Assembly: GCF_002243515.1 (NCBI RefSeq)
Contig: NZ_CP022657.1
Span: forward strand, 2,347,001 to 2,411,000
Source of the DNA: Tumebacillus algifaecis
GTDB lineage: Bacteria; Bacillota; Bacilli; Tumebacillales; Tumebacillaceae
Direction: 5' to 3'
DNA: 64,000 nucleotides
Of this stretch, positions 37,301-51,952 are shown in pieces. The notes below the pieces were generated by a model. It was given only the letters and a program-made list of their open reading frames with translations. It had not been told where the DNA came from and ran no database searches. The translations under genes were made by a program, and so were the position numbers. Within the stretch, counting starts at the first letter, position 1. Every line of letters begins with the position of its first letter.

Positions 37301-40300
37301 GTACTTCCCGTGGAGGAGATCCCGGGCAACCCACGCCTGATCGCCTACTTGGTCACATCAGATCGATTCGATGAGCAAGAGGTCGTTGCGAGCCTTAAGG
37401 CATCACTGCCCGATTACATGATTCCGTCCGCGTGGGTCACGCTCGACAAATTTCCGCTGTTGCCAAACGGAAAGGTGGATCGACGTGCACTTGCAAGCAT
37501 CCAATCGACAGCTCCAGACCGGTTGACAGAAGTTGTTCCCCGAACCGAGATGGAACAGCAATTAGCTTCCGTTTGGGAAAAAGTATTGCGGCGCGACTCA
37601 GTCGGAATTCATCAGAACTACTTTGAACTTGGCGGCGATTCGATTCTGAGCATCCAGCTCGCCTCTCGCGCAGCTGCTCAGGGCATTCATCTGTCGCCCA
37701 AAGATCTCTTTCAACATCCGACGATCGCTCAACTTGCTCAGGTCGCCAAGTGGGCAAATGAGAAGGGGACTGATGCGGAGGAGGAACCGACTGCTGGCCC
37801 CGCTCCGCTTACGCCAATTCAACGCTGGTTCTTCGAGCTGCACCATGAGTCGCCACACCAATGGAACATGCCGCTGCTGGTAGATCTAAAAGTCCCACTC
37901 GATCTGCAGGTGCTGAAGGAATCTCTGCGAGCGCTCTTCTTGCATCATGATGCATTGCGCATGCGCATCGTCCAAACGGAACGCGGTTGGGAGCAACAGT
38001 TTGACGAGTCGATCGGCGACGTGCCCTTCGAACGCCTCGATCTCACCAATCTCTCAGCGGATGAGGAAGAAGCGGTGTGGAGAGCAGAAGTGGTGAAGTG
38101 GCAGGAAAGCTTGAATCTGTTTACCGGCCCGATCGCACGATTTGTCTACTTGGACAGAGGGGAAAACAGATCGCATCGCCTTTTCTGCTTGGTTCATCAC
38201 CTCGCTGTCGACGGAGTCTCTTGGCGGATCTTGCTCGAAGACCTCGAGCGCATCTATGAGCAATTGTTGCACGGTGAAGCGGTTCGGCTGCTTAGAAAAA
38301 CGACGTCTGTGCAACGGTGGGCACGAGTCTTAGCGCAACGTGCACAGGAAGTGGAGATGGAAAAGGAGCTGACCTATTGGCTGGATCAAAACGTTGCAGC
38401 CGATCCACTGCCTGTAGATGATTCAGCTGGGCGCAACACGTACTCGTCACTGCGTCGCAAACGAATGTTCCTCGATCCAGCAAGCACTCGCGCATTGTTG
38501 CAGGAAGCGCCTCGAGCGTTTCGGACCAGTGTGCAAGACTTGTTGGTAACCGCTTTGGCTCAAACGATTGCTGACTGGACCAAAGGGGAGCACGTCTCGC
38601 TTGAGCTGGAGGGACATGGGCGCGAAGAGCTGTTCGAACATGCAAACCTTTCGCGCACTGTCGGCTGGTTCACCGCCACCTATCCGATCCACCTCCATCT
38701 TCAGAACCCTGATGATCCTGCCGATTCGCTAAAGCGGGTCAAGGAACAGCTTCGCTCAGTTCCACGCGGAGGTGTCGGATATGGTCTGCTCCGGTTCATC
38801 GGCCGGGAAGAGGGGAGAAGCGCTTTGCGCAAGGCCCCACAGCCGCAAGTGTTATTCAACTATCATGGGCAGACAGACATGCAGTTCGACTCTTCCAATC
38901 TTTTTGCACTTTCAGCTGAGGAAGTGGTGGCGTCCCACGGCGCGGACAACCTGAGGAGCCATCTGTTGGAGATCAACGGAGCGATTGTGGATCACCGTCT
39001 GCAACTCGATTGGGAGTACAGCGATCAGTTCCATTCGGCCGATACGATCGAGCTGCTGGTGAACTCGTTCTACGACCATCTGCAAAAATTGATCCAACTC
39101 TGCTTCTCTCCAGAAGGTCGAGGGCGAACACCCTCCGACTATCCGAACGCTGAACTTGATCAGGAAAGGCTCGATCGCTTCTTGTCACAACTTGAGTCAC
39201 GTGGATTCCCCCTCGAAAACATCGAGGATCTTTATCCGCTATCCCCGATGCAGCAAGGAATGCTCTATCATTCCAACCTCGTCGAAGAAAAGGGGATGTA
39301 CCTCGTGCAGATGACGCTACATCTGCGCGGGAACTTAAAAGTTGATGTGTTGGAACGCGCTTGGCAATGGGTGGTTGATCGTCACACGATCCTCCGCACC
39401 AGCTTTCATTGGCAATCGCTTCAGGTACCACTTCAAGTTGTACATCAACAGGTTCCAATCACCATTAGGAGCTTGCAGGAAGATGAACATCAACAGGTTG
39501 TACAACAGTTTCTGGACGAAGAGCGCACAGTCGGATTCGACCTTTCGAGTGCGCCTCTCTGCCGCTTGACTTTGGCCGAGATTGACAGCGAGCAATCTAA
39601 ACTGATCTTCACTTCCCACCATCTGGTTTCAGATGGATGGTCTTTGCCTTTGATTTTTCAAGAGCTCTTTGCCGCGTATGTAGCTTTCGATCAGGAGCAA
39701 CTGCCGCAGCAACCAACCGCGCTACCTTTTGTTCGCTATATCGCTTGGTTACAACAGCAAGAGTTGCAGTCTGCTGAGAATTTCTGGCGCGGCTATCTTG
39801 ACGGATTCAGCACACCTTTGCGTTTGGGCATTCGCAAGCGAGGGACGGAACAAACGTTGCCTTCCTCGCTACCTCAAGAACAACATGCCGCCTTATCCAC
39901 CTCTGTGACCGAACAGCTTGTGCGCATGTCCAAACAACAGCAGCTTACCCTCAACACGATCGTACAAGGTGCTTGGTCGATCCTGTTGAGCCGATACAGT
40001 GGAAACGATGATGTTTTGTTTGGTGCCACCTTTGCTGGTCGACCTGCCGATCTGCTCGGATCTGACGAGATGGTCGGTCTCTTCATCGGCACGTTGCCGA
40101 TCCGGGTTCAGATCGAATCGACACAAGCTGTGCTTCCCTACCTACGGGCTCTACAACAAAGGCAGTCTGAGGTGCGCGAATATGAGTATACTCCGCTGGT
40201 CGACATTCAAAAGTGGAGCGAAGTTTCTCACGGACAAGCTTTATTCGATACGATTTTCGTCTTCGAAAATTACCCGATGGATCGGTCGCTGACCGAAAAT

Positions 40301-43300
40301 GTCGGAGGTCTGTTGGTTGAAGAGATCATGTCAGAAGAGTGGAACAACTACCCGCTCACACTGACTGTTGTACCTGGTAGCAAACTGATGCTGAAAGCCA
40401 TGTACGATCAAAGTTTGTATGACGATCGAGACATCGAACGGCTGTTGGTGCACTTGAGCACGCTGATCGAACAGATCGTCTCTCAACCTGAGCAAACGAT
40501 CGGAAAGATGCCGATGCTCACAGCGGAAGAGGTCAACCAACAGCTGGTCGAATGGAATGATCGCAGTTGGATGTCCACCTCGGACCTGTCGATCTTGCGT
40601 TTGATTGAGGAGCAGGCGGAGCGAACGCCTGACCGCACTGCGATCCAGTTCGGTCAAGAGCGGCTGACCTACCGCGAAGTCACTCAGCGTGTCGACGCCC
40701 GTGCTCAACAGCTGCGCGCGCTGGGTGTCACGCGTGATGCGCTAGTCGGGCTCTACCTGAACCGCTCGCACGAATGGGTCATCTCCATCCTCGCCATCTG
40801 GAAAGCGGGAGGCGCCTATGTACCGCTCGACCCCGCACATCCGGTCGAACGCGTGACACGGTGCCTGCAGGATGCACAGCCGGCCGTGCTGCTCACCGAG
40901 AGCAAACTGGTCGAACCTTGGATGAACGAAATGAATCATCTGCTCTGCGTCGATTCATCTGCTGAATTGCGCGCAAATGACCAACCTGTTTGGGAGGCGA
41001 TCAAGTCTGAGCAACCCGCCTATGTGATCTACACTTCAGGTTCTACCGGCGTGCCCAAAGGGGTGCAAATCGAGCATCGCTCGTTGACCGATTTTCTGTT
41101 GACGATGCATCAACGCCTGTCGTTCTCTGAGCGGGAAGTGCTGGTCTCCGTGACGACGATCTCCTTTGACATCTCGATTCTTGAGCTGTTCTTGCCGCTG
41201 ATCTCCGGCGCTCAAGTGGTCATCGCAGAAGCGGAAGTGGCGGCCGATGGGAAACGATTGGGACAGCTCTTAGAAGCGGCGCAGGCGACCGTTCTTCAAG
41301 CGACCCCTGCGACTTGGTATTTGTTGATCCACGCTGGTTGGCTAGGGAAGCACGACCTACGCGCCCTCTGTGGCGGGGAGAACCTGCCTCGCGATCTGGC
41401 CGACGACCTGCTCGCGCGCGTCGGAGAAGTGTGGAACCTGTACGGGCCGACCGAAGCGACCGTCTGGGCGACAGCCGGGAAGGTGGCGCTCTCCGAGCCA
41501 GTGTCGGTCGGTCGCCCTCTGGAGCATGTGGAGACCTATGTGTTGGACGTCAGCCTGCAACCGTTGCCAGTAGGTGTCGTCGGTGAGCTATATCTGGGCG
41601 GTTCCTGCTTGGCAACCGGCTACCGAAACGCTCCGGAGTTGACAGCAAACGCGTTCATTCCGCATCCATTCGCATCCGAGCCAGCATCCCGCCTCTACAA
41701 GACGGGCGACTTGGCACGCTACCTGCCTGACGGATCGCTTGAGATTCTCGGGCGCACCGATCATCAGGTCAAAGTGCGCGGCTTCCGCATCGAACTGGGC
41801 GAGATTGAGGAAGTGCTGTTGCAACACCCCGAGGTGCACCGAGCGGTGGTCGTCGTGCAGGATGCGGCAGTGGGGGACAAGCGCTTGATCGCCTATTTTG
41901 TCCAAGCGGCTGATCAGCCTTCGGTCGAGTCGGGTGAACTCAGAAGATTTCTCAAACAGCGCTTGCCCGACTATATGGTGCCCTCTGCGTTTGTCAGCCT
42001 GACTCAGCTTCCGCTGACACCAAACGGCAAAGTCGATCGCAAAGCACTGCCACAGCCTGCTGAATTCGCGAGCGCCGAGAGGGCCTATGTTGCGGCGCGC
42101 ACCGAGACGGAGACGATGCTGAGCCAGCTGTGGTCAAGCGTGTTGCGCAACAAGCGCATCGGCATGCACGACAATTTCTTCGAGCTTGGCGGACACTCCC
42201 TGCTGGCGACACAGGCGGTCGCTTTGATGCAGGAAAAGATGGGGATCGATCTTCCGCTCCGCACTCTGTTTGAACATCCGACAGTGGCCGAGTTTGCCGC
42301 TTGGATCGAAGAGCGGACAGCGACGGGGAATCACTCGTTCGCTGTAGTACCCCAACTGCCGATCGCTCGACCGTCCAAGCTTCCGCTCTCGTTCGCCCAG
42401 CAGCGCCTATGGATGCTCGACCAGCTGTTGCCCGACCGAGCAGCGTACAACATGCCGTTTGCGGTGCGGATGGAAGGTGCGCTCGACCTTGCCGCACTTG
42501 AGCTTTCCTTGCATGAGATCATCTGCAGACATGAGATCTTGCGCACAACTTTTGCCGAGCAAGCGGGAGAGCCGATCCAGGTGATTCACGCACCGCAGCA
42601 AGAAACCCTGTTGGTGATCGACCTGTCCGATCGAGCAGATGGCGAGCGGAAGGAAAGACTCGAACAGCTCATCGCCGAGGAGGAGAAGCGGGCGTTCGAC
42701 CTGCAGGTCGGCCCCTTGTTACGCCAGAAGCTGGTGCGCTTAGGCGAATTTGAGCACGTTTTATTGATGACCTTCCATCACATCATCTTCGATGCTTGGT
42801 CGATCGCTCTGTTTGTCGAGGAACTGGTCTCGCTCTACGAAGCTGCGCACGAGCAGACTCTGGCACAACTGCCCAAGATGGAGCTTCAATATGCAGACTT
42901 TACGCTCTGGCAGCGCGACTGGTTGCAAGCGGACGTGATGGAGGAGCAGATCCAATATTGGAAACAGCAGTTTCATGGTGAGATTCCGATCTTGCAACTG
43001 GCGACCGACAGGCCACGTCCTGCCGTTCAAAGCGCGCGTGGGGCGGCGGAGCGGTTGGTGCTGGATGAAGAACTGACCGCAGCGCTGCGATCGTTCTCGC
43101 AGGAGCATGAGCTCACGCTCTACATGACACTGCTCGGAGCGTTCTACATCCTGCTGTATCGGTACACTGGCCAAGAGGACCTCGTCGTCGGCACACCGAT
43201 CGCCGGTCGCCGACACAGGCATGCAGAAAAGCTGGTCGGTCTGTTCGTGAACACGCTTCCGCTCCGGCTCGACCTGGCGGGAGCGCCGACTGGTGAAGAG

Positions 43301-46300
43301 GTGTTTGAGCGCGTGCGCCAGATGATGCTCGGTGCCTACAGCCATCAGGACGTTCCCTTTGAGCGGCTGGTCGAGGAGTTGCAACCGACGCGAGACATGA
43401 GCCGGAGCCCTCTGTTCCAAGTGATGTTCGGCCTGCAAAGCACGCAGTTGACCGAGCAAAAGCTCACCGGATTGACCTTGAACCTGATCGACAAGGAAAC
43501 GCCGTTCGCCAAGTTCGACCTGAACCTAGTGCTGCTCGAAGAAGGAGGGACGGTGAGCGGCTGGTGGGAGTATAACGCCGATCTGTTCGATCGCCAGACC
43601 ATCCAGCGGATGATGCTGCACTACCAACAGTTGTTGCGTTCGCTTCTAGAAGGATCGACCTCCCAACCTGAGCAAGCGATCGGAAAGCTGCCAATGCTCA
43701 CAGTGGAAGAGGTCAACCAACAGCTGGTCGAATGGAATAATCGCAGTTGGATGTCCAACTCGGACCTGTCGGTCCTGCACTTGATTGAGGAACAGGCGGA
43801 GCGAACGCCTGACCGCACTGCGATCCAGTTCGGTCAAGAGCGGCTGACCTACCGCGAAGTAACTCAGCGCGTTGCCGCTCGTGCTCAACAGCTGCGCGCG
43901 CTGGGTGTCACGCGTGATGCGCTGGTCGGGCTCTACCTGAACCGCTCGCACGAATGGGTCATCTCCATCCTCGCCATCTGGAAAGCGGGAGGCGCCTATG
44001 TACCGCTCGACCCCGCACATCCGGTCGAACGCGTGACTCGTTGCTTGCAGGATGCACAGCCGGCCGTACTGCTCACCGAGAGCAAGCTGGTCGAACCTTG
44101 GATGAACGAAATGAAACATCTGCTCTGCGTCGATTCAGCTGTTGAAGTGCGCGCAAATGACCAACCTGTTTGGGAGGCGATCAAGTCTGAGCAACCCGCC
44201 TATGTGATCTACACTTCAGGTTCTACCGGCGTGCCCAAAGGGGTACAGATCGAGCATCGCTCGTTGACCGATTTTCTGTTGACGATACAGCAACGTCTGT
44301 CGTTCTCTGAGCGGGAAGTGCTGGTCTCCGTGACGACGATCTCCTTTGACATCTCGATTCTTGAGCTGTTCTTGCCGCTGATCTCCGGCGCTCAAGTGGT
44401 CATCGCAGAAGCGGAAGTGGCGGCCGATGGGAAACGATTGGGACAGCTCTTAGAAGCGGCGCAGGCGACCGTTCTTCAAGCGACCCCTGCGACTTGGTAT
44501 TTGTTGATCCACGCTGGTTGGCTAGGGAAGCACGACCTACGCGCCCTCTGTGGCGGGGAGAACCTGCCTCGCGATCTGGCCGACGACCTGCTCACGCGCG
44601 TCGGAGAAGTGTGGAACCTGTACGGGCCGACCGAAGCGACCGTCTGGGCGACAGCCGGGAAGGTGGCGCTCTCCGAGCCAGTGTCGGTCGGTCGTCCTCT
44701 GGAGCATGTGGAAACCTATGTGTTGGACGCCAGCCTGCAGCCGTTGCCTGTAGGTGCTGTCGGTGAGCTTTATCTGGGCGGTTCCTGCTTGGCGACCGGC
44801 TACCGAAACGCCGCGGAATTGACAGCGAAAGCGTTCCTTCCGCATCCTTTCGCATCCGGGCCAGCATCCCGCCTCTACAAGACGGGCGACTTAGCACGCT
44901 ACCTGCCTGACGGATCGCTTGAAATTCTCGGGCGTATCGATCATCAGGTCAAAGTGCGCGGCTTCCGCATCGAACTGGGCGAGATTGAGGAAGTGCTGTC
45001 GCAACACCCCGAGGTGCACCGAGCGGTGGTCGTCGTGCAGGATGCGGAAGTGGGGGACAAGCGGTTGATCGCCTATTTTGTCCAAACGGCTGATCAGCCT
45101 TCGGTCGAGTCGGGTGAACTCCGAAGATTTCTCAAACAGCGCTTGCCCGACTATATGGTGCCCTCTGCGTTTGTCAGCCTGACTCAGCTTCCGCTGACAC
45201 CATCCGGCAAAGTCGATCGCAAAGCACTACCACAGCCTGCTGATTTCGTGAGCGCCGAGAGGGCCTATGTTGCGCCGCGCACGGAGACGGAGACGATGCT
45301 GACCCAGTTGTGGTCAAGCGTGTTGCGCGTCGATCGCATCGGCATGCACGACAATTTCTTCGAGCTAGGCGGACACTCTTTGCTGGCGACACAGGCGGTC
45401 GCTTTGATGCAGGAGAAGATGAGGATCGATCTTCCGCTCCGCGCCCTGTTTGAACATCCGACGGTGGCCGAGTTTGCCGCTTGGATCGAAGAGCGGACAG
45501 CGACGGGGGACCTCTCGTTCGCTGTGCTACCTCAACTGCCGATCGCTCGACCGTCCAAGCTTCCGCTCTCGTTCGCCCAACAGCGCCTGTGGATGCTCGA
45601 CCAGCTGTTGCCTGACCGAGCAGCGTACAACATGCCGTTTGCGGTGCGGATGGAAGGTGCGCTCGACCTTGCTGCACTTGAGCTTTCCTTGCATGAGATC
45701 ATCTGCAGACATGAGATCTTGCGCACAACTTTTGCCGAGCAAGCGGGAGAGCCGATCCAAGTGATCCACGCACCGCAGCCAGAAACCCTGGCGGTGATCG
45801 ACCTGTCCGATCGAGCAGATGGCGAGCGGAAGGAAAGACTCGAACAGCTCATCACCGAGGAGGAGAAGCGAGCGTTCGACCTGCAGGTCGGCCCCTTGTT
45901 ACGCCGGACGCTGGTGCGCATGGGCGAAGAGGAGCACGTTTTATTGATGACCTTCCATCACATCATCTTCGATGCTTGGTCGATCGCTCTGTTTGTCGAG
46001 GAACTGGTCTCGCTCTACGAGGCTGCGCACGAGCAGACTCTGGCACAACTGCCCAAGATGGAGCTTCAATATGCAGACTTTACGCTCTGGCAGCGCGACT
46101 GGTTGCAAGCGGACGTGATGGAGGAGCAGATCCAATATTGGAAACAGCAGTTTCATGGTGAGATTCCGATCTTGCAACTGGCGACCGACAGACCACGTCC
46201 TGCCATTCAAAGCGCGCGTGGGGCGGCGGAGCGGTTGGTGCTGGATGAAGAGCTGACCGCAGCGCTTCGCTCGTTCTCCCACGAGCATGAGCTCACGCTC

Positions 46301-49300
46301 TTCATGACACTACTCGGAGCGTTCTACATCCTGCTGTATCGGTACAGCGGTCAAGAGGACCTCGTGATCGGCACACCGATTGCCGGCCGCCGGCACAGGC
46401 ATGCAGAAAAGCTGATCGGCCTGTTCGTGAACACGCTTCCGCTCCGGCTCGACCTGTCGGGAGCGCCGACCGGCGCAGAGTTGTTCGAGCGCGTGCGCCA
46501 GATGATGCTCGGTGCCTACAGCCATCAGGACGTGCCCTTTGAGAGACTGGTCGAGGAGTTGCAACCGACACGAGACATGAGCCGGAGCCCGCTGTTCCAA
46601 GTGATGTTCGGTTTGCAAAGCACGCAGCTGACCGAGCAGAAACTCTCCGGATTGAACTTGAACTTGATCGACAAGGAAACGCCTTTTGCGAAGTTCGACC
46701 TGAACCTAGTGCTGCTCGAAGAAGGAGGAAAGGTGAGCGGCTGGTGGGAGTATAACGCCGATCTGTTCGATCGCACGACCATCCAGCGGATGATGCAGCA
46801 CTACGAACAGTTGTTGCGTTCGATTCTGAACGGACCTGTGTCTGAAATTTCTCGCCTGCCGCTCTTGGCAGCATCAGAACGAGCACGATTGCTACAACTG
46901 CCGCACCCAGCAGAGATGCGTCGCTCATCCGAACAGACCCTGCATCAGCAGTTTGAAGCGATGGTGGAACGGACGCCCGACCGCGTTGCGCTCGTCTTCG
47001 AGTCGAACTCCCTGACCTATCGGGAGCTGAACGAGCGAGCCAACCGGGTCGCCGCCCATCTGCTGTCGCTCGGGGTACAGCCCAACACGCTTGTCGGCCT
47101 CTGCACCGAGCGATCGCTGGAGCTGGTCATCGGCCTGCTCGCCATCCTCAAGGCAGGCGGTGCATACGTCCCGCTCGATCCTGCCTATCCGGCCGATCGA
47201 CTCGCGTTCCTGCTTCAGGATGCCAGCCTTTCGATCCTGCTGACGCAACAGCATCTGCGCAATACGCTTCCTGCTCATCGCGCACAGGTCGTCTGTCTGG
47301 ATGATCACGCTCTGTTCGCCTCCGCGAGCGCTGACAATCTGCACAGCGCCGCGACGGCAGAAAGCATCGCCTATGTGATCTACACGTCCGGATCGACCGG
47401 ACAGCCCAAAGGCGTGCCGATTCCGCATGCGAACGTCATCCGCCTGTTCACTTCGACTGCGCACTGGTTCCCGTTTGCAGAAGACGATGTCTGGACGCTC
47501 TTCCACTCCTTCTCGTTCGACTTCTCGGTCTGGGAGCTGTGGGGCGCGCTCTTGCACGGAGGGAAAGCGGTCATCGTGCCCTACTGGATCAGCCGCTCGC
47601 CCGAAGCGTTCCTGCACCTGCTCGCCTCCGAGCGGGTGACGGTGCTCAACCAAACGCCTTCCGCCTTCCGTCAGCTCATGCAAGCGGAAGCGGCACAATC
47701 GGACCGGCAAGCGCTGTCCCTGCGCTGGGTGATCTTCGGCGGCGAAGCGCTCGATCTGCCCGCGCTGCGCCCTTGGTTCGATCGGCACGGCGACCAGAGC
47801 CCGCAGTTGATCAACATGTATGGCATAACCGAGACGACCGTCCACGTCACCTACCGCCCCTTGAAGCGGGAAGATGCGCTGCGCGCAAACAGCGTGATCG
47901 GACATCCGATCCCCGACCTTGAGGTGTACGTGCTTGACCCGCATCTGGAGCCGGTGCCAATCGGCGTAGCGGGTGAGCTATATGTGAGCGGGGCAGGGGT
48001 AGCCCCTGGCTACCTCCACCGGCCGGAGCTGACCGCCGAGCGGTTCCTGCACCATCCGTTCCGCGCCGAAGCGCAAGCTCGCCTCTACAAGACGGGCGAT
48101 CTGGCGCGGCGCCTGCCGAGCGGAGAGTTGGAATATCTCGGACGGATCGACCACCAAGTGAAGATCAGAGGGTTTCGCATCGAACTGGGGGAGATCGAAT
48201 CGATGATCGGCCACCACCCGGGCGTGCGCGAAACGGCCGTGCTGGTGCGCGAAGATCGGGCGGACGACAAGCAGATCGTCGCCTATGTGGTCACCCATGT
48301 CGGTACCGAACTGCAGCCGAGCGATCTACTCTCTCATTGCAAAGAGCGCTTGCCAGACTACATGGTTCCAGCCGCCTTCGTGCTGCTTGACGCTCTGCCG
48401 CTCACACACAACGGCAAGCTGGATCGCAATGCTTTGCCCGCACCGATTGGGCAGCAGAAAGATCGCACAATTCGCTCGCAGCCGGAGAGTGCTACCGAAA
48501 TCGCGATTTCTGAAATTTGGAAGGAAGTGCTCGGAGTCGAACAGATCGATCGCGAAGACAATTTCTTTGACCTTGGCGGACATTCGCTGCGAGCTACTCA
48601 AGCGGTCTCGAGAATCGGTGCAACACTCGGGATCAAACTATCGCTTCGCACCTTGTTCGAAACTCCAACTCTACGGCTTCTGGCCGAAGAGGTTCAACAC
48701 CAGCAGATGAAGGAGATGCCAGTTTCAACCCAAGCGATCTGTCAGCAGTCCCGGATCGGGGAGATTCCACTCTCCTTTGCACAGGAGCGACTATGGGTTC
48801 TCGATCGTCTGATGCCAGGCAACACCGCATACAACATCCCGTTTGCACTCTCGATGATCGGCGAGCTGGATGATGAGGCACTCGAGTGGAGTATCAACGA
48901 GATCATTAAGCGGCATGAGATTCTGCGCACCACCTTGCATCAGGTCGAAAGCAGCGCAGTTCAACGCATCGCAAAACCAGATTGGCAACGCTTGACTCGC
49001 ACCGACCTGCGCAGCCTCTCGTCCGCCGATTGGGAACGGGAAGTGAGTGCGCGTCTTCAAGCGGAGACAGAGCGAGTGTTCGATCTGACCGCAGGACCGT
49101 TGCTATACGTCGAGCTCCTGCAACGCGCATCTGACGATCATGCGCTTGTGATCAACATGCACCATATCATCTCAGACGGCTGGTCGATCGGTCTGCTCGT
49201 GCAGGAGATAGGCGCGCTGTATACAGCCTATGTAGAAGGTCAGACGTCTCCGCTCGCCGACTTGTCGATTCAGTACGCAGATTATGCGATCTGGCAGCGC

Positions 49301-51952
49301 GAATGGCTCGCTGGACAGCGGTGGGACGAGCAGTTGTCCTACTGGAAGACACAGCTCGGCGGGTCACTACCAGCTCTGCAATTGCCAACCGATCATCCGC
49401 GTCCACCTGTACAATCCTATCGCGGTGCTTCCTTTGCTTTTGCGATCGACAAAGTGGTTGTCGAAGCGCTTGAAGCGATCGGCAAAAGTCACAGTGCGAC
49501 GCTGTTTATGACCTTGTTCAGCGTTTTCCAAACGCTGTTGTACCGCTATACAGGCCAGGAGGACCTCGTTGTAGGCACTCCGATCGCCGGGCGTCAGCAG
49601 CAAGAAACGGAAGGATTGATCGGATTTTTTGTCAACACGCTGGTCATGCGCACCGACCTGTCAGCGCGGCAGACATTTGTCGAACTGCTAGCTCAAGTCC
49701 GCCAAACGGCGCTCGACGCTTACACGCATCAGGATATTCCGTTCGAAAAACTGGTAGCCGAGCTCCAGCCGATCCGCGATCGAAGCAGATCCCCGCTGTT
49801 TCAAGCGATGTTCGCACTGCAAAGCGCATCGCAGGCATGTTTATCACTTCCAGGGCTTGCCATCCAGCAGATCGAAGGAGCGACGACGACAGCCAAATTC
49901 GATCTGTCCGTAACCTTCGAAGAGAGTGAACAAGGGCTGAACGGACATCTCGAATACAGCACCGATCTTTTCGAGGCCAGTACGATTGCTCGCATGGCAG
50001 ACCATCTGGTGACGCTGATGAACAGCGTGATTGAAAATCCAAACACACCGGTGTCTGAACTGCAGATGGTAACAGAAGCGGAGAAGAGGCTGTTTAGCGA
50101 ATGGAATGGTGAACTGCCATCACCAGCAGATCAATGTGTGCACCGCCTGTTTGAATCACAGGTGATCCGCACGCCAGATCGCATCGCGGTCGAACATGAA
50201 GGGAATGAACTCAGTTACCGTGAGCTCAATGCGCGCGCCAACCAATTGGCTCGACATCTGCAGGCGCTCGGTGTTGGGCCGGAGATGCCCGTCACCTTCT
50301 GCCTGGATCGGTCACTCGATCTGGTGATCGCCCAACTTGCCATTCTCAAAGCGGGCGGAGCATACGTGCCGATCGATCCGAACAATCCGCCGGAGCGAAC
50401 TGCGTTCATCCTGCAGGATACGAATGCGTTGGTGATGGTTGCACACTCCCATCTAATCCGAGAGCTGCCCAACCTGCCGGCTCAACTCGTCTGTCTCGAT
50501 CAAGATGAGGATGTGCTGTCAGCCTACTCTGGCGAAGATGTGAGCAGCGATGTGCGTCCAGATCATCTTGCTTATCTGATCTACACATCTGGATCGACTG
50601 GCCGGCCGAAAGCTGTCGCCGTCGAACATCGAAACGTGCTCTCCACTTTGCTCATCGCCCAAGAGCAATTCGTGTTCCGAGAAAGCGATGTGATCATGTG
50701 GACTTCATCCGCTGCGTTTGACATTTCGCAATTCGAACTGTGGAGCACTCTGTTTGTTGGGGGTCGCATCCTCTTGCTCTCTCGGGATCATATCTTAAAC
50801 ATTGACCGCATGATCGTGGATCTGACACGTGCCACCGTGGTAAATTTCGTACCAAACTTGATGAGACGCGTCATCGAAGCTACGAAATCTGCGATTCAAG
50901 AGGGGACGCGATTTGACAACTTGCGCTACCTGTTCATCGGCGGAGACGCAGTCCCCCCACAGATGTTAGTAGAGACGAATCAAACCTTTCCGCGCACAGA
51001 CACGTATGTGCTCTATGGTCCGACGGAGGCTTCAATCTTCGCCACCAGTCATCTGGCCAAGCGCGGGGAAGAGGGGGATCGGATTTTGATCGGCAAGCGT
51101 TGCTTGAACGCTCAGCTCTACATCTGTGATCCGTTCGACCAAGAGGTCCCGCTCGGAGTGCCGGGTGAACTTCAGATCGGCGGACTTGGGGTTGCTCGAG
51201 AATACTTCGGTCGAGAGGAATTGACAGCAGAAAAATTCGTTACGGTCGATGGACAAAGACGCTACAAGACGGGCGACCTTGTGCGCTACCTACCAGACGG
51301 GTCGATCGAGTTTCTCGGACGCATCGACGGACAGGTCAAGATTCGCGGGTTCCGTATCGAGATCGGCGAGATCGAAGCGGCATTGACTCAACAGCCTGAC
51401 ATTGTGGATGCCGTTGTGCAAGTACATGAGACCGCAGCGGGGGAGAAGCGGTTGATCGCCTATGTGGCAAGATCAGAGGAAGGAAAGTTGGATGTGCGCT
51501 CCTTGCGTCACGAATTGCAGAAACGACTGCCCGATTATATGATTCCTGCTCGGTTCATCCAACTGGAAGCACTGCCTTTGAACCCGAATGGAAAAGTGGA
51601 CCGAAAAGCTCTGCAGACACTTGAATGGCCCGCCATGGATAGCGAGGATTTTGCGCAGCCAAGCACTCCGACCGAAACAAAAGTGGCCGCCATCGTCGCC
51701 AACTTGCTCAGCCTGCAGCAGATCGGCGTGCATGACAACTTCTTTGAGCTCGGTGGCCACTCGCTGCTCGCCATGCAGGCGATCGCGGAGATTCGCGCCG
51801 AGCTGAAGGTAGAAGTGCCGTTGTCTGCGCTGTTTGAAGCACCGAGCATAGCGGAGCTGTCCGCCATGATCGACATTTTGCTCAACGAGACTCCGCAGCA
51901 AGAATCGAGCATCAAGCGAGCTTCTCGCTCCGCACATGCGCGGAGACGATAG
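29288..51952 (+). CDS. Lipo-initiating NRPS: FAAL-ACP plus six modules
   Basis: This 7554-residue protein starts and extends a lipopeptide. A fatty acyl-AMP ligase (residues 1-580; YTSGSTALPKG near 169, LPPYHDMGLIGG near 212) loads a fatty acid on an ACP (FGLDSLVAVQ near 641). Six modules follow: C-A-T (700-1755), C-A-T-E (1775-3275), C-A-T (3315-4345), C-A-T (4360-5405), C-A-T (5420-6470), C-A-T (6490-7520). Predicted residues: Gly-like, D-X, Gly, Gly, Thr, X. The third C starts with LSPMQQGMLYHS, the DCL form expected after an E domain. A GGAGGAA site (29274-29280) precedes the ATG. Modules 3 and 4 contain a near-identical 3.18-kb tandem duplication. The last 15 residues are very basic (ending AHARRR), and no TE is present, so the chain passes to the next NRPS, whose gene starts 29 bp later. 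Confidence 0.97.
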   Translation: MKTSIPIFSTLPELLQTRAHLSPEKLAYSFLTTDGDEETVTYQELDRNARMLAATLQEHSPGERVLLLYPPGLSYIRAFFGCLYAGLVPVPAYPPRTNGHLDRLQAIIHDSQAKLALTTPSILNGIELQQSNFRELQDIEWIVTSSWEGSGSTGWRPPAVDGDSLAFLQYTSGSTALPKGVMLTHHNLLHNLQAIENSFETNEASRCVIWLPPYHDMGLIGGILQPLYTGYPVTLMAPVDFIQRPYFWLQTISRLGGTVSGGPNFAYDLCVQKITPEQRDTLDLSTWKVAFTGAEPVRSETLDRFADFFAPCGFQREAFYPCYGLAEGTLFVTGGRIEEAPVIQPFNADLLQQGRASKVEPVFEHAQTLVSSGRLTDGQQSIVIASPDTLSLCSEGEVGEIWVKSPSVAQGYWNRREQTEEVFHAFLTDTGDGPFLRTGDLGFAQDQELFVTGRLKDLVIIRGRNYYPQDLEFCVQKSHQAVHNNNGAAFSIELDGEEKLVIVQEVERQYRRSNLQPVLDLIRQSIAEEYQLQVHEIVLIKPVSIPKTSSGKVQRHLCRARYLNNTLDVLCTDGSQSELLKLDQIQEERPDQSLADPQGWITDAPEQRLEKVRSHLQAQLAQLLRMTSAHPPSDRPISQFGLDSLVAVQFKDEIQGAFGVSLQLSQLLSGPTLDQLALSIIENRSAADLEETGIAPDNNELTGETTGLSYGEQSLFFLQNMHPEDTAYNIARAAKVSGAFDVDAWHRAILQLTKRHPQLRTRYTLQDGMPVRAIQETAEVGWLYQDAQAWSEVELQDRMITESHRPFDLENDCLLRTCIWKRSETEHILLLIAHHIIVDFNSFGVMVQDLQTLYQAEIRLSSDATEASSSLGYGGYESFVRKQMALLQSAEGERQRQYWHRKLGGELPVLQMPSAHARPAIQTYKGAASLFQLSADVSAGVRRLALEHGMTIYSTLLAAFQAILHRYTGQDDLLIGSPTSIIESAHEVSDIGYYVNPVVIRTDFKADPTVRELLGQVRQHVLEALDHAEYPFALLVEDLQPERDLSFPPLFQAMFTYQRSQLPELKELTAFSLGMKGGSFNLGQLAFESLPLQQNHAGFDLSLAMAEVEGTLAGRFEYNTDLFSDELIERLIEHFKTLLAAFVTSPDRLVAELPLLTESEWQQQLIDWNRSTCDFPEVLSVHRLFEEQVRRTPDRIAVSFDDVSLTYQQLDELANRRADQLLALGIEKETLVGLYLNRSHELIVSILAIWKAGGAYVPLDPSHPQERVIFTLQDARAAVLVTESSLLSTWMDEIEQVLCIDVDRKDQQMIDRQVHPQSHPHQLAYVIYTSGSTGQPKGVQIEHRSLTNLLFSLQNKLSFSERDVLVAVTTITFDISTVDLFLPLITGAQVVVANSDQVADARLLAQLLQEKNATVLQATPATWYQLINSGWQGKQDLLVMSGGESMPRALADDLLMRSREVWNLYGPTETTVYATGGRVGAQGTVLIGEALDNVEAYVLDAHLQPVPLGAKGELYVGGVCLARGYLNRLELTAEKFIPHPFSSSDEARLYKTGDIARYQADGNLEILGRVDNQVKVRGYRIELGEIEATLTEHQEVKQAAIIVTDAGDGDVRLIGFVTMKFAVTATTLKRKELRHFLKSRLPDYMVPAHLVILEEMPLTTSGKVDRKALKVPDEYYAEQAGVVQLDTETEKIVAEIWSKVLRVEQLGAQSNFFELGGHSLLATQVTTRMQDAFGLTIPLRQLFECPTVAEMASWIEGATQEAPNDLSKHRLLTPISRAGELPMSYAQQRLWTLDRLIDDPAAYNMPFAIRLQGNLKEAALEQSLSLIVNRHEALRTTFAEVDGAPIQMIAPPAPVLVMKRDLSNDSSAERELTLERLLQEVAGLAFDLQSGPLIRFCLVKTADQEHVLIINMHHIIADGWSIVLFREEFVASYSALAEGRSPDLAELSLQYADFASWQRDWLQGSVLEEQLNYWNQQLAGTLPTLELPIDHQRPALQTQRGKVERFTLSEELTVRLRALSSEHGVTMFMTLLSAFNLLLARYSGTPDICVGTPIAGRHHREVEPMIGLFVNTLVIRTDLSENLTFAELLSRVRETALNAFAHQDVPFEKLVEVLVPTRDLSRTPLFQVMFDLQEDILTKIELPDLALTPIEFDSEHAKFDLTLAMVDRERQLSGSFEYNADLFESATIKRMLVHFEQLLCSITERSTERISALSMLTSNERSTLSAYGSGVKRAIPQHLCVHQLFEAQAEKTPDSKAIEWKSGSLSYKELNRRANQLAHALIRAGVRVDQPVGLCVARSPEMIIGMLGIMKAGGAYLPLDPAYPAQRITYMLEDADADVLLTQSGCIPANVQGRTVFLLDADHDRFDQECEENPATDVRSDHLCYIIYTSGSTGAPKGVEIEHRNVVNHNLAIAEEYSLQPHDRVLQFSSISFDIAVEEIFPTLVTGGTLYIRDEEMLTTAERFLREIDERKLSVLNLPTAFWSSWTHELAELGAKLPESLRLMIVGGEKASPEALTTWQRIAPEIDWINAYGPTETTVTATLFRSKGSSTRLGSIPIGRPIANLEAHILDAHLQPVPIGVVGELYLSGAGVARGYRDRPELTASVFLNSPFHEEGSARLYKTGDLVRWLRDGQLEYVGRVDDQVKIRGFRIEAGEIESCLEQLPTIQEAIVLPVEEIPGNPRLIAYLVTSDRFDEQEVVASLKASLPDYMIPSAWVTLDKFPLLPNGKVDRRALASIQSTAPDRLTEVVPRTEMEQQLASVWEKVLRRDSVGIHQNYFELGGDSILSIQLASRAAAQGIHLSPKDLFQHPTIAQLAQVAKWANEKGTDAEEEPTAGPAPLTPIQRWFFELHHESPHQWNMPLLVDLKVPLDLQVLKESLRALFLHHDALRMRIVQTERGWEQQFDESIGDVPFERLDLTNLSADEEEAVWRAEVVKWQESLNLFTGPIARFVYLDRGENRSHRLFCLVHHLAVDGVSWRILLEDLERIYEQLLHGEAVRLLRKTTSVQRWARVLAQRAQEVEMEKELTYWLDQNVAADPLPVDDSAGRNTYSSLRRKRMFLDPASTRALLQEAPRAFRTSVQDLLVTALAQTIADWTKGEHVSLELEGHGREELFEHANLSRTVGWFTATYPIHLHLQNPDDPADSLKRVKEQLRSVPRGGVGYGLLRFIGREEGRSALRKAPQPQVLFNYHGQTDMQFDSSNLFALSAEEVVASHGADNLRSHLLEINGAIVDHRLQLDWEYSDQFHSADTIELLVNSFYDHLQKLIQLCFSPEGRGRTPSDYPNAELDQERLDRFLSQLESRGFPLENIEDLYPLSPMQQGMLYHSNLVEEKGMYLVQMTLHLRGNLKVDVLERAWQWVVDRHTILRTSFHWQSLQVPLQVVHQQVPITIRSLQEDEHQQVVQQFLDEERTVGFDLSSAPLCRLTLAEIDSEQSKLIFTSHHLVSDGWSLPLIFQELFAAYVAFDQEQLPQQPTALPFVRYIAWLQQQELQSAENFWRGYLDGFSTPLRLGIRKRGTEQTLPSSLPQEQHAALSTSVTEQLVRMSKQQQLTLNTIVQGAWSILLSRYSGNDDVLFGATFAGRPADLLGSDEMVGLFIGTLPIRVQIESTQAVLPYLRALQQRQSEVREYEYTPLVDIQKWSEVSHGQALFDTIFVFENYPMDRSLTENVGGLLVEEIMSEEWNNYPLTLTVVPGSKLMLKAMYDQSLYDDRDIERLLVHLSTLIEQIVSQPEQTIGKMPMLTAEEVNQQLVEWNDRSWMSTSDLSILRLIEEQAERTPDRTAIQFGQERLTYREVTQRVDARAQQLRALGVTRDALVGLYLNRSHEWVISILAIWKAGGAYVPLDPAHPVERVTRCLQDAQPAVLLTESKLVEPWMNEMNHLLCVDSSAELRANDQPVWEAIKSEQPAYVIYTSGSTGVPKGVQIEHRSLTDFLLTMHQRLSFSEREVLVSVTTISFDISILELFLPLISGAQVVIAEAEVAADGKRLGQLLEAAQATVLQATPATWYLLIHAGWLGKHDLRALCGGENLPRDLADDLLARVGEVWNLYGPTEATVWATAGKVALSEPVSVGRPLEHVETYVLDVSLQPLPVGVVGELYLGGSCLATGYRNAPELTANAFIPHPFASEPASRLYKTGDLARYLPDGSLEILGRTDHQVKVRGFRIELGEIEEVLLQHPEVHRAVVVVQDAAVGDKRLIAYFVQAADQPSVESGELRRFLKQRLPDYMVPSAFVSLTQLPLTPNGKVDRKALPQPAEFASAERAYVAARTETETMLSQLWSSVLRNKRIGMHDNFFELGGHSLLATQAVALMQEKMGIDLPLRTLFEHPTVAEFAAWIEERTATGNHSFAVVPQLPIARPSKLPLSFAQQRLWMLDQLLPDRAAYNMPFAVRMEGALDLAALELSLHEIICRHEILRTTFAEQAGEPIQVIHAPQQETLLVIDLSDRADGERKERLEQLIAEEEKRAFDLQVGPLLRQKLVRLGEFEHVLLMTFHHIIFDAWSIALFVEELVSLYEAAHEQTLAQLPKMELQYADFTLWQRDWLQADVMEEQIQYWKQQFHGEIPILQLATDRPRPAVQSARGAAERLVLDEELTAALRSFSQEHELTLYMTLLGAFYILLYRYTGQEDLVVGTPIAGRRHRHAEKLVGLFVNTLPLRLDLAGAPTGEEVFERVRQMMLGAYSHQDVPFERLVEELQPTRDMSRSPLFQVMFGLQSTQLTEQKLTGLTLNLIDKETPFAKFDLNLVLLEEGGTVSGWWEYNADLFDRQTIQRMMLHYQQLLRSLLEGSTSQPEQAIGKLPMLTVEEVNQQLVEWNNRSWMSNSDLSVLHLIEEQAERTPDRTAIQFGQERLTYREVTQRVAARAQQLRALGVTRDALVGLYLNRSHEWVISILAIWKAGGAYVPLDPAHPVERVTRCLQDAQPAVLLTESKLVEPWMNEMKHLLCVDSAVEVRANDQPVWEAIKSEQPAYVIYTSGSTGVPKGVQIEHRSLTDFLLTIQQRLSFSEREVLVSVTTISFDISILELFLPLISGAQVVIAEAEVAADGKRLGQLLEAAQATVLQATPATWYLLIHAGWLGKHDLRALCGGENLPRDLADDLLTRVGEVWNLYGPTEATVWATAGKVALSEPVSVGRPLEHVETYVLDASLQPLPVGAVGELYLGGSCLATGYRNAAELTAKAFLPHPFASGPASRLYKTGDLARYLPDGSLEILGRIDHQVKVRGFRIELGEIEEVLSQHPEVHRAVVVVQDAEVGDKRLIAYFVQTADQPSVESGELRRFLKQRLPDYMVPSAFVSLTQLPLTPSGKVDRKALPQPADFVSAERAYVAPRTETETMLTQLWSSVLRVDRIGMHDNFFELGGHSLLATQAVALMQEKMRIDLPLRALFEHPTVAEFAAWIEERTATGDLSFAVLPQLPIARPSKLPLSFAQQRLWMLDQLLPDRAAYNMPFAVRMEGALDLAALELSLHEIICRHEILRTTFAEQAGEPIQVIHAPQPETLAVIDLSDRADGERKERLEQLITEEEKRAFDLQVGPLLRRTLVRMGEEEHVLLMTFHHIIFDAWSIALFVEELVSLYEAAHEQTLAQLPKMELQYADFTLWQRDWLQADVMEEQIQYWKQQFHGEIPILQLATDRPRPAIQSARGAAERLVLDEELTAALRSFSHEHELTLFMTLLGAFYILLYRYSGQEDLVIGTPIAGRRHRHAEKLIGLFVNTLPLRLDLSGAPTGAELFERVRQMMLGAYSHQDVPFERLVEELQPTRDMSRSPLFQVMFGLQSTQLTEQKLSGLNLNLIDKETPFAKFDLNLVLLEEGGKVSGWWEYNADLFDRTTIQRMMQHYEQLLRSILNGPVSEISRLPLLAASERARLLQLPHPAEMRRSSEQTLHQQFEAMVERTPDRVALVFESNSLTYRELNERANRVAAHLLSLGVQPNTLVGLCTERSLELVIGLLAILKAGGAYVPLDPAYPADRLAFLLQDASLSILLTQQHLRNTLPAHRAQVVCLDDHALFASASADNLHSAATAESIAYVIYTSGSTGQPKGVPIPHANVIRLFTSTAHWFPFAEDDVWTLFHSFSFDFSVWELWGALLHGGKAVIVPYWISRSPEAFLHLLASERVTVLNQTPSAFRQLMQAEAAQSDRQALSLRWVIFGGEALDLPALRPWFDRHGDQSPQLINMYGITETTVHVTYRPLKREDALRANSVIGHPIPDLEVYVLDPHLEPVPIGVAGELYVSGAGVAPGYLHRPELTAERFLHHPFRAEAQARLYKTGDLARRLPSGELEYLGRIDHQVKIRGFRIELGEIESMIGHHPGVRETAVLVREDRADDKQIVAYVVTHVGTELQPSDLLSHCKERLPDYMVPAAFVLLDALPLTHNGKLDRNALPAPIGQQKDRTIRSQPESATEIAISEIWKEVLGVEQIDREDNFFDLGGHSLRATQAVSRIGATLGIKLSLRTLFETPTLRLLAEEVQHQQMKEMPVSTQAICQQSRIGEIPLSFAQERLWVLDRLMPGNTAYNIPFALSMIGELDDEALEWSINEIIKRHEILRTTLHQVESSAVQRIAKPDWQRLTRTDLRSLSSADWEREVSARLQAETERVFDLTAGPLLYVELLQRASDDHALVINMHHIISDGWSIGLLVQEIGALYTAYVEGQTSPLADLSIQYADYAIWQREWLAGQRWDEQLSYWKTQLGGSLPALQLPTDHPRPPVQSYRGASFAFAIDKVVVEALEAIGKSHSATLFMTLFSVFQTLLYRYTGQEDLVVGTPIAGRQQQETEGLIGFFVNTLVMRTDLSARQTFVELLAQVRQTALDAYTHQDIPFEKLVAELQPIRDRSRSPLFQAMFALQSASQACLSLPGLAIQQIEGATTTAKFDLSVTFEESEQGLNGHLEYSTDLFEASTIARMADHLVTLMNSVIENPNTPVSELQMVTEAEKRLFSEWNGELPSPADQCVHRLFESQVIRTPDRIAVEHEGNELSYRELNARANQLARHLQALGVGPEMPVTFCLDRSLDLVIAQLAILKAGGAYVPIDPNNPPERTAFILQDTNALVMVAHSHLIRELPNLPAQLVCLDQDEDVLSAYSGEDVSSDVRPDHLAYLIYTSGSTGRPKAVAVEHRNVLSTLLIAQEQFVFRESDVIMWTSSAAFDISQFELWSTLFVGGRILLLSRDHILNIDRMIVDLTRATVVNFVPNLMRRVIEATKSAIQEGTRFDNLRYLFIGGDAVPPQMLVETNQTFPRTDTYVLYGPTEASIFATSHLAKRGEEGDRILIGKRCLNAQLYICDPFDQEVPLGVPGELQIGGLGVAREYFGREELTAEKFVTVDGQRRYKTGDLVRYLPDGSIEFLGRIDGQVKIRGFRIEIGEIEAALTQQPDIVDAVVQVHETAAGEKRLIAYVARSEEGKLDVRSLRHELQKRLPDYMIPARFIQLEALPLNPNGKVDRKALQTLEWPAMDSEDFAQPSTPTETKVAAIVANLLSLQQIGVHDNFFELGGHSLLAMQAIAEIRAELKVEVPLSALFEAPSIAELSAMIDILLNETPQQESSIKRASRSAHARRR
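31361..34560 (+). other. Starter C-A-T module, Gly-like code
   Basis: The C domain motif is HHIIVDFNS, with Phe where Gly is usual; this fits a domain that takes an acyl donor. The pocket reads D-I-V-Q-M-G-L-V-Y-K, seven of ten identical to the DILQLGLVWK code found later in this protein. A small residue (Gly or Ala) is likely. Confidence 0.5.
34561..39110 (+). other. NRPS module C-A-T-E, D-residue, code DIENIGAVTK
   Basis: The pocket (FDIAVE, LNLPTAF, IVGGEK, AYGPTETTVT) has no match that I know. The T domain is of the LGGDSI type and the E domain has HHLAVDGVSWRIL. Its later motif reads FNYHGQ instead of the usual FNYLGQ. The residue should be D. Confidence 0.6.
39111..42330 (+). other. 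NRPS module DCL-A-T, predicted Gly
   Basis: The pocket D-I-L-Q-L-G-L-V-W-K differs by one residue from the Gly code DILQLGLIWK. The C domain (HHLVSDGWS) is the DCL type, in line with the E domain just before it. Confidence 0.7.
40484..43647 (+). repeat. Tandem A-T-C duplication, unit 1
   Basis: This unit and the next are in register with a period of exactly 3180 bp (1060 codons). The unit runs from the C-A linker (QPEQTIGKMPML) through A3, T3 and C4 to the end of C4. Bases 41117-41413 are identical to 44297-44593, which points to a recent duplication or gene conversion. Confidence 0.92.
42331..45510 (+). other. NRPS module C-A-T, predicted Gly (duplicate)
   Basis: Same pocket code as the module before (DILQLGLVWK), with a 297-bp stretch of the A domain identical at the nucleotide level. 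The C domain motif is HHIIFDAWS, with Ala for Gly. Confidence 0.7.
43664..46827 (+). repeat. Tandem A-T-C duplication, unit 2
   Basis: Second copy, from the C-A linker (QPEQAIGKLPML) through A4, T4 and C5. Similarity ends abruptly where C5 gives way to the Thr-type A domain, and starts abruptly in the linker before unit 1, so both breakpoints lie in the C-A linker. Confidence 0.92.
45511..48700 (+). other. NRPS module C-A-T, predicted Thr
   Basis: The pocket D-F-W-N-I-G-M-V-H-K (FDFSVW, LNQTPSAF, IFGGEAL, MYGITETTVH) is exactly the canonical Thr code. Thr here could give the hydroxyl for later lactone closure. Its C domain is nearly identical to that of the preceding module (HHIIFDAWS). Confidence 0.88.
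48701..51952 (+). other. NRPS module C-A-T, code DIFNFGLIFK
   Basis: The pocket (FDISQF, VNFVPNLM, FIGGDAV, LYGPTEASIF) is closely related to the DIFHFGLIIK code of two cluster 1 modules. The substrate is unknown. The module ends in the basic C-terminal tail. Confidence 0.6.

Follow-up and report, generated by a model that had tools for sequence, protein, structure and literature searches.

Tandem module duplication in nonribosomal peptide synthetases (NRPSs) is already known. In fungal ferrichrome synthetases, tandem duplication of whole adenylation-thiolation-condensation (A-T-C) modules within one gene was inferred by Bushley et al. (2008) from old domain phylogenies (PMC2644324), whilst the Leu-module duplications of Pseudomonas lipopeptide synthetases, in which adjacent near-identical modules add one lipopeptide residue, were deduced from A-domain similarity and from predecessor and successor clusters, with no breakpoint detail in the accessible text (PMC9948697). 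Medema et al. (2014) described whole clusters in which duplicated modules are kept alike by internal recombination (PMC4256081), and Baunach et al. (2021) described recombination within and between NRPS genes, mostly exchange of the A core with the native C-A linker kept, together with one A-T-C-A exchange (PMC8097286). Engineered exchange units (XU) likewise span A-T-C, with the cut made within the C-A linker (PMC8362031, PMC11546977), at W]-[NATE, and follow the rule that the acceptor site of the upstream C domain should match the downstream A domain (PMC8362031). For engineering, two questions stand open: by what route NRPS assembly lines acquire modules, and whether the incoming residue is policed by the C domain. 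Here we describe an adjacent pair of A-T-C units within one NRPS gene of Tumebacillus algifaecis, in a window of 64,000 nucleotides (RefSeq assembly GCF_002243515.1, contig NZ_CP022657.1, positions 2,347,001 to 2,411,000), to which positions refer unless a genome is named. Unlike the ferrichrome case, this pair is young and bacterial, with breakpoints located to within roughly a dozen bases, and, unlike the cases of Baunach et al., its breakpoint lies in the C-A linker and the number of modules changes. What is new is therefore a well-resolved example, near base-pair resolution; no earlier account of a natural A-T-C duplication with its junction resolved at base level was found in a literature search that mostly did not extend to subscription papers.

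When the sequence was compared with itself at an offset of 3180 bases, 60-base windows between 40461 and 43640 were 0.75-1.00 identical, against 0.12-0.43 for the remaining windows of 38001-50540, so that the block is sharply bounded. Positions 40484-43647 and 43664-46827 aligned without gaps over 3164 bases at 95.2% identity. A blastn search of 709 kb of the host genome (the window and NRPS regions) returned a single pair for the A-T-C unit, of 3168 bp at 95.17%, and no third copy at ≥80% over 250 bp. The tract thus occupies 99.6% of the 3180-base period, and the copies are adjacent, in frame and alike over all of it. Because Pfam domain positions place both edges between C and A, the repeated unit is A-T-C. 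The sliding-window alignment suggested in a preliminary description of this DNA therefore upheld its two in-frame blocks of about 3.18 kb, in the A-T-C and not the C-A-T phase.

Over 1054 codons (3162 bases), 152 differences separated the copies (40, 28 and 84 at codon positions 1, 2 and 3), and the encoded proteins differed at 60 amino acids. Nonsynonymous (dN) and synonymous (dS) divergence by NG86 were 0.029 and 0.119, and since dN/dS was approximately 0.24, both copies look to be under protein-level constraint. Every core motif looked for in the A, T and C domains was present in both, including the C motif HHIIFDA, whose HHxxxDA form is a variant carried by nine of the 111 C domains listed for the host genome. 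The proposal that the duplication was recent holds only in a relative sense (dS 0.12), and later gene conversion, suggested by the identical stretch over the pocket, would lower the apparent age of the copies.

The join itself was located with a hidden Markov model (HMM) of the C-A linker, built from three genomes with the linkers before, between and after the copies left out of its training. Among 371 linkers (114, 134 and 123 per genome) flanked by nearly complete C and A matches within 80 residues, net length change over model positions 36-50 was zero in 367, +1 in one, negative in two (-8 and -15) and +4 in one, and this sole +4 linker was the middle linker of the repeat. Its single four-residue insertion lies at model position 41 (the W being at position 65), whilst the outer linkers of the repeat have no insertion relative to the model. 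Set against the constant length elsewhere, the middle linker indicates a join 12 bases out of homologous register. Between the two flanks an imperfect match, GT.TCT.AA, occurs in the repeat register (8/13, the best of 31 registers), and a short filler, or a later change, at the junction before this match is possible. The breakpoint falls at residue 3732 and the W at residue 3756, so that the W follows 24 residues past the breakpoint in both copies. The preliminary description had placed the breakpoints at the XU fusion point; the unit is indeed A-T-C with both ends in C-A linkers, but unlike the engineered design the natural breakpoint is 24 residues N-terminal of the W of W]-[NATE and four extra residues are left behind.

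Both copies carry the A-domain code DILQLGLVWK, identical at nine of ten positions to DILQLGLIWK, which we take to be a Gly code, and the next module carries DFWNIGMVHK, presumably a Thr code. Both copies are therefore likely, by code prediction, to load Gly, in line with the Gly-Gly proposed previously, and one extra residue in the product is expected from an in-frame A-T-C duplication. Copy-1 C precedes a predicted Gly module and copy-2 C a predicted Thr module; whichever copy is older, copy-1 C followed by copy-2 A is the only new domain pairing. The earlier claim that the duplicated C keeps its acceptor-side partner consequently appears not to hold for copy 1, with only its twin standing before the predicted Thr module. 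By this prediction copy-1 C facing Gly would be a mismatch, and would break the acceptor rule, in contrast to XU design (PMC8362031), whilst Baunach et al. take natural recombination as an argument that acceptor filtering of this kind is weak (PMC8097286). The next module has an A domain that is itself 90.8% identical to the final one of a different gene (genome positions 2422902-2424404); this match begins in the C-A linker and ends ahead of T, which points to an A-domain exchange between genes in which either one could be the recent import.

The longest identical run between the copies, 297 bases (residues 3944-4042), covers most of the A-domain pocket, as had been noted from the sequence, with six of the ten code positions inside it and positions 322, 330, 331 and 517 outside. 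A run of this length was matched in 1 of 20000 codon-position-preserving shuffles, and differences between the copies were overdispersed (variance/mean 1.86 in 100-base bins). The tract, silent sites included, exceeds what the divergence of the copies allows, which suggests later gene conversion between them and fits the concerted evolution of Medema et al., although their examples are whole clusters and this is one pair (PMC4256081); selection at the DNA level is another possible cause. When the 60 protein differences were polarised against 15 distant homologs per region, the linker and A favoured copy 1 at 16, copy 2 at 9 and neither at 4, and T-C favoured copy 1 at 10, copy 2 at 17 and neither at 4. 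This is a weak hint that copy-1 C may have changed more than copy-2 C, and we do not rely upon it. The C-terminal lobe of copy-1 C is more divergent (dS 0.24). An imported patch in this lobe was considered and rejected, as listed matches other than the twin were short (37-104 bases, 83-95%).

We consider, with a probability of about 0.8, that an ancestral C-[A-T-C]-A segment was duplicated in tandem inside one NRPS gene. The in-frame duplication would have arisen by an illegitimate join, through unequal crossing-over or slippage, of two C-A linker starts 12 bases out of register; a crossover at aligned homologous positions is not the join proposed. The enzyme would then load Gly twice and its lipopeptide-like product would have gained one Gly; copy-1 C would have to accept Gly, its twin sitting before the downstream, now predicted Thr, module, and gene conversion would afterwards have kept the A pockets identical. 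Tandem duplication requires a similar tract as long as the period, and 3168 of 3180 bases fits this. Gene conversion or double crossover might instead have made two older, different modules alike with their number unchanged, as the mosaic of the pair (the 297 identical bases and the overdispersed differences) and the partial extent of six of eight near-identical neighbour tracts in the genus would allow, since conversion leaves such tracts. A conversion tract would, however, need to reach the same module phase at both ends by chance, and would leave the four-residue scar exactly between the copies unexplained. As the tract fills the period and the middle linker is four residues longer whilst the outer linkers are normal, we favour duplication through a slipped join and regard conversion of older modules as unlikely. 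Insertion of an A-T-C unit from another gene or strain beside its homolog gains some plausibility from the A-domain exchange directly downstream, but the lack of a third copy in the 709 kb and the distance of the best matches in two congeners and 79 loci of other genomes make it very improbable. An assembly artefact, in which a single copy was doubled or two alleles were set in tandem, is scarcely credible given the 152 differences between the copies, which are scattered and codon-biased; their third-position excess and dN/dS of 0.24, the middle linker unlike both outer linkers, and the single-contig genome all speak against it.

Several observations weigh against tandem duplication as we have set it out. 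The junction bases fit neither outer flank well, the only match between the flanks being the imperfect one described above. The A domain of the next module belongs to a recently exchanged pair, which makes it uncertain what C originally faced on its acceptor side, and Gly specificity and the product are predictions from codes. In addition, the single-copy ancestor was not seen, with no ortholog found in the genomes searched. Neither an ortholog nor a shorter form was found when the DNA of the repeat and its flanks was compared with the host genome and 60 relatives, only two of them congeners, no ortholog of the first 6.7 kb of the gene was found in the genus (three genomes including the host), and no cross-genome block of ≥900 bases at ≥75% fell on the gene among the NRPS stretches of these three genomes. 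A protein search of 481 relatives, from which the records closest to the host genome may be missing, gave a best listed identity of 49% among the best 80 matches kept as 79 distinct loci.

If tandem duplication is correct, the pair is young enough for the join to be read, as an A-T-C unit with one new C-A pairing, at a point where a linker length constant in nearly all those compared is broken by four residues. Should the product carry Gly-Gly, this would show directly that the assembly line tolerates a join of this kind. We tentatively propose that a slip-joined A-T-C duplication may work despite the scar and the change from Thr to Gly at the acceptor side, that acceptor gatekeeping by C domains and exact linker length may both be dispensable when assembly lines grow, and that conversion may then have fixed the pockets.

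Table 1. Features of the NRPS gene and its repeat (window positions), and other near-identical adjacent tracts (genome or genome:contig positions; G000 is the host genome, G001 and G002 are congeners).
Feature	Position	Strand	Remarks
NRPS gene	29288-51952	+	7554 aa; open reading frame, domain matches
C domain before repeat	39233-40480	+	HMM map; outside the repeated unit; trimmed at repeat start, HMM match extends to 40540
Copy 1, A-T-C unit	40484-43647	+	Pfam: A 40607-41623, T 42122-42307, C 42377-43711
W of WND (WNATE-equivalent) motif	40553-40555	+	24 residues downstream of breakpoint
297-base identical stretch, copy 1	41117-41413	+	longest identical run, most of A-domain pocket
Junction of copies	43648-43660	+	C-A linker bearing four-residue insertion
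Copy 2, A-T-C unit	43661-46827	+	Pfam: A 43787-44803, T 45299-45487, C 45557-46894
297-base identical stretch, copy 2	44297-44593	+	partner of 41117-41413
A domain of next (predicted Thr) module	46936-48438	+	Pfam limits 46952-48016
C-A-T tract, ends within T	G001:C2 458484-461496		93% of period
A-T tract	G000 2191402-2193315		partner 2194600-2196513; 95.7%; different NRPS gene of host genome
A-T tract	G001:C1 791597-793544		
Tract from final 70 residues of C across A to within T	G002 4958470-4960390		
Tract from final 69 residues of C to within A sub-domain	G002 4948965-4950555		
Within-A tracts	G001:C1 958727-959615 and 259966-261064		

The gene encodes, in order, an N-terminal acyl/AMP-ligase-like domain, T, C-A-T, C-A-T, an E-like domain, C, the two A-T-C units, A-T and C-A-T; the N-terminal domain is probably FAAL-like, and the E-like assignment is likewise a prediction. 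A Pfam domain search between 38501 and 50500 found five condensation-type stretches. The host genome (4.52 Mb on a single contig; window GC 55%) is rich in NRPSs, with at least 111 matches listed for condensation domains, 129 for AMP-binding domains and 150 for carrier domains; the condensation count is a lower bound, as it lacks the E-like domain and the C domain that immediately precede the repeat.

An older A-T-C repeat was found in one congener by comparing the assembly lines G001:C1 943065-969755 and G002:C1 4391824-4415291 (loci L192, L193, L164 and L165). Two tandem A-T-C units at G001:C1 956955-963131 (A 85.6% and C 77.7% alike) correspond to one A-T-C unit in G002, whose A domain the two G001 A domains match at 81.5% and 78.5% and whose C domain both G001 C domains match at 77.0%, a 261-base G002 fragment that scores higher through shortness being excluded from the C comparison. 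The flanks also match (C upstream 81.9%, A downstream 82.5%). Between the G001 copies, a similarity of 0.62-0.65 gives way to 0.67-0.83 at the C-A linker, then drops to 0.61 one period on, with a patch inside A mostly at 0.93-0.97, a more similar A core that fits the concerted evolution of Medema et al. (PMC4256081). Change of module number in the A-T-C phase therefore occurs in the genus, and either a gain in G001 or a loss in G002 may account for this case. One module also seems to have been replaced between these lines, because the next G001 module (C 953784, A 952686) reaches ≤67% to any G002 counterpart, the 261-base fragment aside. Elsewhere, approximately 14 kb with four C-A pairs (G001:C1 264402-278502) has flanks that are nearly adjacent in G002 (C1 3714985-3715179).

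Across 2.06 Mb of NRPS stretches from the three congeneric genomes (for G001 and G002, at least the regions listed), the 60 longest near-identical matches, down to 731 bases, included eight adjacent pairs at ≥89% with a spacing of 3.1-3.3 kb and lengths of 889 to 3168 bases, and further adjacent pairs at this spacing with 76-84% identity. Among these eight, one was the full A-T-C unit described here, one was C-A-T and six were partial, the seven other than the A-T-C unit occupying 29-93% of their period (Table 1). Non-adjacent near-identical pairs occurred too, such as the A-domain pair beside the repeat (G000 2393936/2422902). A-T-C is thus one natural unit among several, and the generalization that natural assembly lines can grow by this unit is borne out by this pair and by one further case in the genus, but not by most near-identical tracts.

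Beyond the genus, 106 NRPS loci, a non-random sample of 27 from relatives of the host genome and 79 chosen by similarity, contained six repeats in five loci. No full-module copy was present in the three loci with module-spaced repeats, which were mapped; the other two loci, L112 and L121, carry repeats at wider spacing. The NRPS loci of Ktedonobacter, a Competibacteraceae metagenome-assembled genome and Chamaesiphon carry partial near-identical adjacent tracts (L080 7842-10119, L090 6310-8048 and L055 166-1914, respectively) comprising T-C, C-A, pieces of A and A-T. At G001:C1 316690-331017 (L177 and L178), a 7.8 kb block is repeated at an offset of 6530, about two modules, with 87% identity, perhaps through whole-gene duplication of neighbouring NRPS genes. 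A further 19 kb of NRPS genes in the host genome (2550436-2569423) is 94% identical to G001:C1 517012-536000, whilst of the 33 cross-genome blocks 15 were listed, the remaining 14 of which are at 83-86%, and recent transfer of this block is possible.

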